64,000 nucleotides of DNA, from NCBI RefSeq assembly GCF_001514205.1, contig NZ_KQ948774.1, forward strand, positions 124,001 to 188,000, written 5' to 3'. The position numbers and the translations under genes are program-made. Below the pieces are notes generated by a model. The model saw only the letters and a program-made list of their open reading frames with translations, was not told the origin of the DNA and did not search any database. Every line of letters begins with the position of its first letter. Position 1 is the first letter of the stretch. This DNA comes from Streptomyces griseoruber. Lineage in GTDB: Bacteria > Actinomycetota > Actinomycetes > Streptomycetales > Streptomycetaceae. Shown here piece after piece: positions 23,182 through 25,770 of the stretch.

Positions 23182-24396
23182 ATGGAAACCGTCATCCTTG
23201 CTGTAGTCATCGCCGTGGTCGTGCTCGCGGTGCTCGGCGGGCTCGTCGTCGGCAGCCGGCGCAAGAAGCCGCTGCCCCCGCCGCCCCCCGCCGCGCCCGA
23301 CATCACCGCGCCTCCGGCCGAGCCGCACGTCGGCGACGAGGCCGAGACGCCGCGCGACGAACCGCGCCGCACGATCGAGGAGGTGGATCTTCCCGACGGC
23401 GGCCCGGCCGGGGTCGCGGTCGAGGAACCGCCCGCCGACCTCTTGGCCGAGGCTCCGGAGATCGAGATCCCGGAGCCCACCGCGGGGCGTCTCGTACGCC
23501 TGCGCGCCCGTCTCTCCCGCTCCCAGAACGCCCTCGGCAAGGGGCTGCTCACGCTGCTCTCGCGCGAGCACCTCGACGACGACACCTGGGAGGAGATCGA
23601 GGACACCCTGCTCACCGCCGACGTCGGCGTCCTGCCCACGCAGGAGCTGGTGGACCGGTTGCGCGAGCGGGTGAAGGTGCTCGGCACCCGGACCCCCGAG
23701 GAGCTGCGCGCCCTGCTGCGCGAAGAGCTGCTCAAGCTGGTCGGCACCGACGTCGACCGCACGGTGAAGACCGAGCCCGAGGACCGCAAGCCCGGCATCG
23801 TGATGGTCGTCGGCGTCAACGGCACCGGCAAGACCACCACCACCGGCAAGCTCGCCCGGGTGCTCGTCGCCGACGGCCGTACGGTCGTCCTCGGCGCCGC
23901 CGACACCTTCCGCGCCGCCGCAGCCGACCAGCTCCAGACCTGGGGCGAGCGGGTCGGCGCCCACACCGTGCGCGGACCCGAGGCCGGCGACCCCGCCTCC
24001 GTCGCCTTCGACGCGGTGAAGGAGGGCAAGGAGATGGGCGTCGACGTGGTGCTCATCGACACCGCCGGGCGGCTGCACACCAAGACCGGGCTCATGGACG
24101 AGCTCGGCAAGGTCAAGCGCGTCGTGGAGAAGCACGCCCCGCTGGACGAGGTGCTGCTCGTCCTCGACGCCACCACCGGGCAGAACGGCCTGGTCCAGGC
24201 CCGGGTCTTCGCCGAGGTCGTCGACATCACCGGCATCGTGCTGACCAAGCTCGACGGCACCGCCAAGGGCGGCATCGTCGTCGCCGTCCAGCGCGAGCTG
24301 GGCGTGCCCGTCAAGCTCGTCGGTCTCGGCGAGGGCGCGGACGACCTGGCGCCGTTCGAGCCGGAGGCGTTCGTTGACGCCCTCATCGGAGAATGA
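23182..24396 (+). CDS. ftsY: Signal recognition particle receptor FtsY
   Basis: 404 residues from METVILAVVIAVVVLAVLGG, an N-terminal membrane anchor typical of actinobacterial FtsY, followed by an acidic Pro/Glu-rich A domain (to about residue 105). The NG GTPase domain has G1 GVNGTGKTTTTGKLA, DTFRAAAADQLQTW, G3 DTAGRLHTK, G4 TKLDGTAKGG and the closing GLGEGADDLAPFEPEAFV. It receives the SRP-ribosome complex at the membrane and works with Ffh, encoded about 8 kb downstream. The start is fixed by the conserved METVIL sequence; the ribosome binding site (acgggtt) is weak. Its stop is followed by several palindromes. Confidence 0.96.
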   Translation: METVILAVVIAVVVLAVLGGLVVGSRRKKPLPPPPPAAPDITAPPAEPHVGDEAETPRDEPRRTIEEVDLPDGGPAGVAVEEPPADLLAEAPEIEIPEPTAGRLVRLRARLSRSQNALGKGLLTLLSREHLDDDTWEEIEDTLLTADVGVLPTQELVDRLRERVKVLGTRTPEELRALLREELLKLVGTDVDRTVKTEPEDRKPGIVMVVGVNGTGKTTTTGKLARVLVADGRTVVLGAADTFRAAAADQLQTWGERVGAHTVRGPEAGDPASVAFDAVKEGKEMGVDVVLIDTAGRLHTKTGLMDELGKVKRVVEKHAPLDEVLLVLDATTGQNGLVQARVFAEVVDITGIVLTKLDGTAKGGIVVAVQRELGVPVKLVGLGEGADDLAPFEPEAFVDALIGE

Positions 24397-24438: not shown

Positions 24439-24444
24439 GGCGAG

Positions 24445-24481
24445 AAGCGCCCGCCCCCAGGTGCAGTGGGAGCGGGCGCTT
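24445..24481 (+). terminator. Hairpin terminator of ftsY
   Basis: A perfect 10-bp stem AAGCGCCCGC/GCGGGCGCTT with 17-nt loop that can pair further (CCCA with TGGG). It could terminate ftsY and shield against antisense transcription from the prim-pol gene. Confidence 0.75.
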
Positions 24482-24507
24482 CGCTGTGTACCGGCCGGGA
24501 GGGGGCG

Positions 24508-24670
24508 CTAGTGCCGCGGCAGGCGACGTTCGCCCCGTCGCGACGCCCGGTACGCACTCTCGCCGCACCGGCCGAAAGCACGTCCAGTACGAGGACTTCC
24601 GGCCGGCACGCCGAGAGCACGCACCGGACGCCGCTCCTTGACGGGCAGACGTTGCCTGCCGCGGCACTAG
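24508..24670. mobile_element. MITE-like 163-bp element with 22-bp terminal inverted repeats
   Basis: The ends CTAGTGCCGCGGCAGGCGAC (24508-24527) and the reverse complement of 24649-24670 match at 21 of 22 positions. The interior continues as an imperfect palindrome, roughly three-quarters self-complementary around position 24588, so the whole element can form one long hairpin. It has no coding capacity. CTAG at both outermost ends could be target duplication or part of the repeat. The right end provides the TAG stop codon (24667-24669) of the adjacent minus-strand gene. The transposase family is unknown. It could alternatively be a non-mobile hairpin repeat. Confidence 0.7.
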
Positions 24671-25323
24671 GCGCGGGAGCGGTGCGCCACGTACGCCAGG
24701 GTCCCCAGCAGCAGCCGGGCCTCCGGGGGCCGGGTGGCCGAGTCCAGGGCCGGTGGGCGCAGCCAGTGGACCGGGCCGAGGCCGCCGCGGTCGGAGGGCG
24801 GGGCCGTGACGTACGTACCCGGGCCGAGGCCGCGCAGATCGAGGGCGGCCGGGTCGTCCCAGCCCATGCGGTAGAGGAGGCCGGTCAGCTCGGCGGCGGC
24901 CCCGGGGGCGACGAAGAACTGGGTGCGGCCCTCGGGGGTGGCGGTGACCGGACCGAGGGGCAGGCCCATGCGCTCCAGTCTGACCAGGGCCCGGCGCCCG
25001 GCGGGCCCGGCGACCTCGATCACGTCGAAGGCGCGCCCGACCGGCAGCATCACCGCGGCGCCCGGGAACTCCGCCCAGGTCCGCGTCACGTCGTCGAGGG
25101 TGGCGCCGGCCGGGACCCGGGCCGCGAACTCCAGGGGGTGGGCGCCGGGTGCGCGGCAGCCGGGGCGGCCGCAGGAGCAGACGCCGGCCGCGGCCCGGGC
25201 GCCCGGTACGACGTCCCAGCCCCACAGTCCTGTGAACTCGGCGACGGCGGTGCACTCGGACGAGCGACCGCGCCTGCGCGCGCCGGAGCGGATCTCGCGG
25301 ATGCCGCCGATCGTGAAGCCCAT
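24667..25323 (-). CDS. Prim-pol domain-containing protein (bifunctional DNA primase/polymerase N-terminal-like)
   Basis: 218 residues from the ATG at 25323 (MGFTIGGIREIRSGARRRG), with a strong ggaggggg ribosome binding site. It resembles the short prim-pol-like proteins that Streptomyces encode between ftsY and nsdA. Visible features are GLWGWDVVPG, a CSCGRPGCRAPGAHPLEF cysteine/histidine cluster typical of these proteins (GC..PGKHP-like) and VMLPVGRAFDVIEV. The catalytic acidic pair of true archaeo-eukaryotic primases is not obvious, so activity is uncertain. The gene stops within the right terminal repeat of the MITE-like element. It is divergent from nsdA across a 447-bp gap. Confidence 0.75.
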   Translation of the reverse strand: MGFTIGGIREIRSGARRRGRSSECTAVAEFTGLWGWDVVPGARAAAGVCSCGRPGCRAPGAHPLEFAARVPAGATLDDVTRTWAEFPGAAVMLPVGRAFDVIEVAGPAGRRALVRLERMGLPLGPVTATPEGRTQFFVAPGAAAELTGLLYRMGWDDPAALDLRGLGPGTYVTAPPSDRGGLGPVHWLRPPALDSATRPPEARLLLGTLAYVAHRSRA

Positions 25324-25770
25324 GCCCCCTCCAACGGGTGTGCCGCGCCGGTGGTTACGTAACGGTCGCATGTCGTAACTCTGCGTACTTTCGCTGCCCG
25401 TCGGCCGCCTGTTGCAGACGGCGTCCGGAAGCACGCCGGGTGGTGTGGTCGGCGACGCGCGCCCCTGAGTGCTTCCCTCCGCTCACCCCCACCCGTCCTG
25501 TGTCAAGTGAATCGCCTACGGGCCATCGGTAGTTCATTCGAAGGGGTGGCGAATGGTGGCGTTTCCGGGATCCTCGTGGCTGGGTCCGTGATCGTAGGAT
25601 TACTTTGAGTGTGCGGGTCCTGGAGGCACATGCGTTTGTGGGTATGCCGGAGGCAAGTCGACTTTCCGTTCGAAGGGTGACAACTACCGGACGAGGGGCC
25701 GTATTTACCGGCATTCTGATAAGGCTTGGCGCACTCAGTGACAAGTGGTCTCAGGGATGGGGGCGTTCCA
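25324..25770. other. 447-bp divergent intergenic region between the prim-pol gene and nsdA
   Basis: No gene is supported. It holds a perfect 10-bp palindrome GTTACGTAAC (25354-25363), then GTCGTAAC, and is clearly less GC-rich towards nsdA (25500-25740), as expected of a promoter region. nsdA expression is developmentally relevant, so this stretch is a candidate for regulator binding, but no known box was recognised. Confidence 0.45.

Follow-up and report, generated by a model that had tools for sequence, protein, structure and literature searches.

The window, by which we mean the whole stretch of 64,000 nucleotides of Streptomyces griseoruber DNA that was analysed, contains at 24508-24670 a palindromic, non-coding MITE of 163 bp, including a CTAG at each end. 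To its left lies ftsY on the plus strand, which has a Pfam match to SRP54 GTPase and stops at 24396; to its right, and relevant here as context, is a minus-strand Prim-Pol gene (24667-25434; Pfam PF09250), which lies outside the element except for its stop codon, located inside the right-hand CTAG. The long open reading frames that run across the element are other frames of these neighbours. A separate 16-nt inverted repeat at 24444-24482, 3' of ftsY, is probably that gene's own terminator; relatives that do not carry the element have comparable GC-rich repeats at the same place behind ftsY.

The left terminal inverted repeat with its CTAG spans 24508-24535 (plus strand) and the right one 24643-24670 (minus strand). 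Both have the form CTAGTGCCGCGGCAGGC(G/A)ACGT, and the near-match of the 22-bp ends reported in the preliminary description is confirmed: the two termini are identical at 21 of 22 positions, and the inverted arms extend further, to 28 nt with 89% complementarity. The termini (GTGCCGCGG...) are of the kind seen in IS630-family elements, and not of the IS5 type. Between them, the hairpin cassette occupies 24539-24634 on the minus strand and measures 96 bp, compared with 102 bp in the family as a whole, with a score of 84 bits against model R1; likewise, the complete copy is 163 bp long against a family length of 169 bp, and alignment with the 169-bp copies places a 6-bp deletion beside the loop, at about 24576-24582. 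The interior had also been described as an imperfect palindrome, and indeed the whole segment folds as single-stranded DNA with z = -5.55, a value that none of 200 shuffles equalled; the minus strand is the best-folding one. In Rfam, the best score was 32.7 bits (mir-8515) against a gathering score of 100, and no known RNA family was matched.

The hairpin is not a chance feature of this locus, since copies occur elsewhere in the genome. The draft assembly of the same organism holds about 35 of them, usually 169 bp long, at unrelated sites and flanked by CTAG; with a covariance model of the interior, 35 cassettes scored above 70 bits, and 25 of these share the top score. Full or partial matches were found in 215 of 295 genomes of the genus, many of them covering the interior only. 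The supposition of a MITE with copies elsewhere is thereby upheld, and confinement to a single locus, which would have spoken against it, is ruled out by the other copies in its own genome. More widely, the cassette occurs throughout the Streptomycetaceae, with 141 of the 245 genomes and three of the eight genera that were sampled in the order containing it, one of these three genera belonging to another family and giving weaker matches; the named records that carry it include Kitasatospora and Embleya. Matches were also seen in 19 plasmid records (Streptomyces and Embleya), and a phage collection searched with the element gave zero matches. Loci with no match to the model (e.g. Frankiales and Myxococcota MAGs, L202, L241) were dropped from the 80 listed. 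Four copies in the organism's own genome (L070, L071, L166 and L167) are core-less or shortened, measuring about 60-96 bp; they keep the same ends, CTAG stands on either side, and they presumably arose by deletion inside the palindrome.

The TAG stop of the Prim-Pol reading frame (CTA at 24667-24669) falls in the element's right-hand CTAG, and it had been proposed that the right end contributed this codon and that insertion reshaped the C-terminus. The 3' end of the gene was fetched from 29 relatives, 23 of them readable and six unreadable. In 10 of the 23, all element-free, the protein ends at the same residue as in the window (...AHRSRA); of the others, three are two residues longer, one ends in AHRSRP, one is eleven residues longer and eight have diverged tails. 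The stop is TAG in eight of the ten same-end relatives, with a CTAG context in three (G009, G014 and G026), and the letters that follow it differ from those of the element. Because element-free relatives stop at this point, and the letters that follow are not the element's, the element most likely entered a pre-existing CTAG/TAG and left the Prim-Pol protein unaltered. The stop codon does sit in the right-hand CTAG, but the relatives do not support its having been supplied by the element, and a reshaped C-terminus was rejected.

The same placement is frequent among the other copies. Thirty-one of the 35 own-genome copies were taken for a stop test, the rest being at contig ends, cut or irregular; 22 of the 31 adjoin a coding-like reading frame that ends in the element's TAG, whereas among the 86 remaining CTAG sites of these loci, 33 form the stop of such a frame (Fisher p = 0.003); here, coding-like is a heuristic that combines a length of at least 90 codons with the GC content by codon position. 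CTAG is scarce, the 86 control sites being spread over 648 kb. Over the sampled elements as a whole, a good many of which lack CTAG or have short flanks, 77 of 162 adjoin a reading frame ending in the element's TAG. Of 177 elements, covering all end types, 127 could be resolved, and the dinucleotide TA stands on both sides of 96 of these; in the 96, duplication of TA and symmetry are indistinguishable, CTAG being its own reverse complement. Where the flanking dinucleotides of the 127 resolved elements are other than TA, seven are inverted-symmetric (CA...TG or TG...CA) and none is directly repeated, which fits arm-to-arm copying into the target site, or insertion free of duplication.

A candidate for the mover was found through the ends, which were searched in ten genomes. 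Among the matches listed, many ends pair at MITE distance, and a 1235-bp element with the same kind of ends is present in one genome (G227). Its 253-aa reading frame has matches to HTH_29 and HTH_32; DDE_3 is added by a relative, L313, in which the IS630 transposase is split, and this gives the IS630 layout. With the G227 protein as query, matches at E ≤ 1e-20 were obtained in 120 of 246 genomes, and G068 has four equal-scoring transposase copies with a 394-aa frame. Each of the 30 related-transposase loci that were fetched has an end resembling CTAGTGCCGCATCAGGCAACGTTCGCCC on one side or both, the best agreement being 17-21 of 22 positions, and L310 and L321 are autonomous elements with matching ends in other genomes; ends were also examined at L312 and L314-L316, with reading frames for some of these. 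In the organism's own draft genome, the cognate transposase was not found, the closest relative detected being 44% identical, and the mover there is absent, lost or hidden in an assembly gap; the unpaired or gap-adjacent ends of this genome (L160-L165), three of which stop at runs of N, led to no transposon. Judging from the sequence of its ends, the window MITE is presumably mobilised in trans by an IS630-family transposase, as the preliminary description had expected for an element with no transposase of its own; a transposase with the same ends, which it had proposed to look for, is present in other genomes, albeit not found in the draft genome that contains the window. Additionally, an 807-bp element with IS630-type ends (L311; G124:C1:8675770-8676576) encloses a gene resembling mycothiol maleylpyruvate isomerase, and the one reading frame scanned in it gave no transposase match.

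The cassette itself is not tied to these ends. The sequences show one hairpin, about 102 bp long, inside MITEs whose terminal repeats are quite different, of the IS630 type and of several IS5 types; clustering of 79 resolved 18-mer ends gave nine groups, one of which is a register shift. Most of the IS5-type labels denote an end pattern; an exact counterpart in an IS5 element was established for one end type, CTAGGGCCTGTTGCGAAAGTGG, which the MITE L225 and L141 (G000:C29, 1438-2920 of the locus) share over 22 nt without a mismatch. L141 belongs to the IS5 family, with DUF4096 and DDE_Tnp_1, and is about 1.48 kb long; between its intact, CTAG-flanked ends, it carries a transposase that is split and, as a passenger, a gene resembling pyridoxamine 5'-phosphate oxidase. 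Two MITEs of G283 (L052 and L053, with ends GGGCCTGTGTCGGAAGTGGCG) have cassettes identical at 102 of 102 positions to the main cassette of the window's own genome, and their ends are unrelated to the ones that flank it there. Moreover, two hybrids were found: in L195, the left end is of the IS5 type and the right end of the IS630 type, and the two ends of L209 likewise differ from each other. Recombination inside the cassette best explains the identical cassettes under unrelated ends together with the two hybrids, and we infer from these sequences that the ends have been exchanged in this way; the hybrids, at two, are few, and they could instead be products of chromosomal rearrangement.

A source of the cassette in autonomous elements was considered and rejected for those examined: none of 30 PF13340 loci has a cassette match below E 0.1, 30 IS630 loci gave a single weak match (L342; 25.7 bits), and the match at L317 is a MITE. 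Given the core-less copies with the same ends, the cassette may be dispensable for movement. A second type of short repeat, TGGGGGCACCTCCCGGCCGGAGGCTGGGGG, is found at approximately the same point in the 3' arm of the cassette in L102, L103, L124, L127, L128, L195 and L209, in tandem in L107 and also next to the cassette in L108; it is placed in the manner of a small element that favours one point of entry. MITEs with IS5-type ends are present in the window's own genome as well (L090-L093, at G000:C1:568416, C17:7149, C3:304505 and C11:279316); their cassettes have diverged to about 69% identity, with the outer stem kept and the inner stem different.

The fold of the cassette depends on the strand. 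For a 169-nt copy (L013), the model strand, which is the minus strand in the window, adopts a near-perfect fold as RNA (-154.8 kcal/mol, z -18) and the opposite strand a poorer one (-114.7, z -12); as DNA, the corresponding values for the cassette are -45.8 and -28.4. The consensus contains eight G.U pairs. In 46 aligned cassettes, nine pairs show changes on both sides, and none of 500 shuffles reached as high a number. A larger, ungapped set of 98 distinct cassettes was also assembled, some of which were required to agree with the consensus at 82 or more of 102 positions, and the structure applied to it derives from 46 of its members. Here, changes from a Watson-Crick pair to G.U outnumber those to A.C by 146:8 when cells are counted and by 22:8 as distinct states, the latter being the safer figures, as cells count related sequences. 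Watson-Crick pairing is restored by 25 distinct double changes, including C-G to G-C; at five pairs, the same wobbles are retained in 93-97 of the 98 cassettes; and in all 98, stability is greater for the model strand. These measures fit RNA and single-stranded DNA alike.

Cassettes are also oriented with respect to the replication origin, a bias that first drew attention on G283 and, in passing, on G038. Of the 150 best cassette matches listed, 11 were left out (six in G243, with no DnaA hit; three in G007 and one in G012, with DnaA close to one end of the record or far from its centre, making the origin uncertain; and one on G266:C2), leaving 139 oriented copies on 23 chromosomes with DnaA located; all counts that follow in this paragraph are among the matches listed. 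In 107 copies, the direction of the model strand is toward the origin, and in 32 it is away from it (p = 1.2e-10, a value that takes copies to be independent, an assumption that shared ancestry of copies would break). By genome, this direction is in the majority in 20 and in the minority in one, with ties in G103 (4:4) and G266. Recounting without G283 gives 87 versus 26, and without both G283 and G038, 76:21. When the origin is shifted, the fraction peaks in place or at -0.5 Mb and declines to roughly one half once the shift reaches 4 Mb in either direction. The bias is present at all distances from the origin and with both IS630-type (16:5) and IS5-type (37:14) ends, ends having been assigned for 77 of the 139 copies, five of those without a type. 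Equal-scoring copies divide 5:5 in G038 (ten copies), 9:1 in G269 and 5:2 in G192. From a second set of chromosomes, G333 and G461 were counted for orientation, with the origin assumed at the midpoint, and show a weaker 20:12 (p = 0.22). The geometry of this orientation makes the well-folding strand mostly the leading-strand template, and the bias would arise if hairpins in the wrong orientation are lost or excluded at replication forks.

Taken as a whole, we favour, with a probability of roughly 0.7, the reading that the window element is an IS630-end MITE in an existing CTAG stop, and that it bears a portable cassette, the ends of which are swapped by recombination and the copies of which are biased by strand. 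Transposases of the IS630 or IS5 type would move the cassette MITEs in trans into CTAG; recombination between cassettes would exchange the ends and so bring a MITE under the other transposase family, perhaps followed by arm-to-arm copying within the palindrome. Copies that present the better-folding strand as the lagging-strand template would be lost or never fixed, and one strand of the cassette would stay able to fold near perfectly, the other remaining imperfect. A more far-reaching version, which we put forward only tentatively and hold to be somewhat less than evenly probable, is that the real selfish unit would be the 102-bp cassette: a hairpin specific to one strand, active as single-stranded DNA or RNA, that repeatedly takes new terminal repeats and thereby employs unrelated transposase families as it spreads in the Streptomycetaceae, its two strands being tuned to let just one fold well and that one being kept off the lagging-strand template.

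As regards the bias, the serious rival is that transposases insert in a fixed orientation at replication forks, through contact with the sliding clamp, and that the hairpin plays no part. Clamp-guided insertion has been described, and comparable biases for several IS families and Tn7 are given in the available text of the same source (PMC5371812); moreover, the equal-scoring and presumably young copies of G269 are already as uneven as 9:1 among the matches listed. We nevertheless hold this to be less likely than not: the bias accompanies ends of both transposase families, the two ends of the element are nearly identical and its clear asymmetry is the cassette, and the equal-scoring copies of G038 are evenly split among the matches listed. 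The G.U pattern could also be read as no more than a mark left on an old perfect palindrome by strand-biased cytosine deamination, with no selection on the G.U pairs. Single-side changes in Watson-Crick pairs on the model strand do lean in this direction (C>T in 19 and G>A in six distinct states, p = 0.015), but the compensatory Watson-Crick double changes, C-G to G-C among them, and the five wobble pairs kept in nearly all cassettes make it improbable, as does the fact that the model strand is mostly the leading-strand template, whereas deamination should mostly affect the template of the lagging strand.

Two further explanations concern the ends and the sites. A single ancestral MITE family, in which the ends diverged stepwise to follow different transposases while selection kept the cassette, with no recombination between families, would account for the conservation of the cassette across all end types and for the likeness of many IS5-type ends (GGGCCTGT and similar); it is unlikely, as fully identical cassettes under unrelated ends and the hybrids L195 and L209 need exchange, and the IS630-type ends match another transposase family. 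An action of the cassette on host transcripts, whether by stabilising their 3' ends, by terminating them or by offering a site for RNase III, would suit both the excess of own-genome copies at stop codons over other CTAG sites and the strong RNA fold of one strand. Against this, the copies show no clear orientation relative to genes, whether those with their stop in the element (48 versus 35, p = 0.19) or those within 300 bp (87 versus 86), and the CTAG target together with the removal of in-gene insertions would explain the placement; a host 3'-UTR function was rejected on the former ground, and we consider this explanation very improbable.

In the current paradigm, as given in the accessible part of PMC11389934, MITEs originate by loss of the transposase gene. 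The present element resembles bacterial MITEs in being short and non-coding, with terminal inverted repeats and many copies, and its movement in trans is presumed; it departs from the paradigm in that its interior is a cassette common to different ends and not found in the autonomous elements examined. Duplication of TA has been shown for the IS630-family ISY100, in a paper the reference list of which names IS630 and the TA in CTAG (PMC2170065, available text). The ends of the window element and its CTAG/TA site are like those of IS630 and Tc1-mariner elements, the ends being matched by sequence only; unlike them, it has no transposase, and the deviant flanks of the resolved elements are inverted-symmetric in seven cases and direct in none. 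Other MITEs with the same cassette have ends like those of IS5 elements with DUF4096 (PF13340), exactly so for L141 and L225, whereas the window copy has IS630-type ends. REP elements partner with REP-associated tyrosine transposases. REPINs, described in the accessible part of PMC3116915 as mobile palindromes at high copy number, are similar to our elements in both of these respects. The latter differ in their DDE-type ends in CTAG, their longer hairpin and their IS630 and IS5 partners.

For the strand bias, the nearest parallel is the orientation-dependent deletion of palindromes on the lagging strand, which Trinh and Sinden reportedly observed in plasmid tests. Such deletion would predict the bias seen here, with the better-folding strand off the lagging-strand template, although the present repeats are natural and chromosomal. 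Hairpins form on the exposed lagging-strand template, according to the available text of PMC12708500. In a search of the open-access literature, with most subscription papers outside its scope, a description of this MITE family was not found in the text seen. That the element is a MITE belongs to what is known; relative to the literature seen, the occurrence of one cassette across the ends of two transposase families and the strand bias are new.

Insertion at CTAG, often a stop codon in such genomes, as at the control sites, would allow these elements to accumulate with little damage. The common view is that a passenger element descends from the transposon by which it is moved, and the shared cassette and the hybrids suggest that a change of driver is possible. 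Finally, the strand bias provides natural chromosomal data on hairpins at replication forks, through which it becomes testable whether hairpins are lost from the lagging-strand template in vivo.
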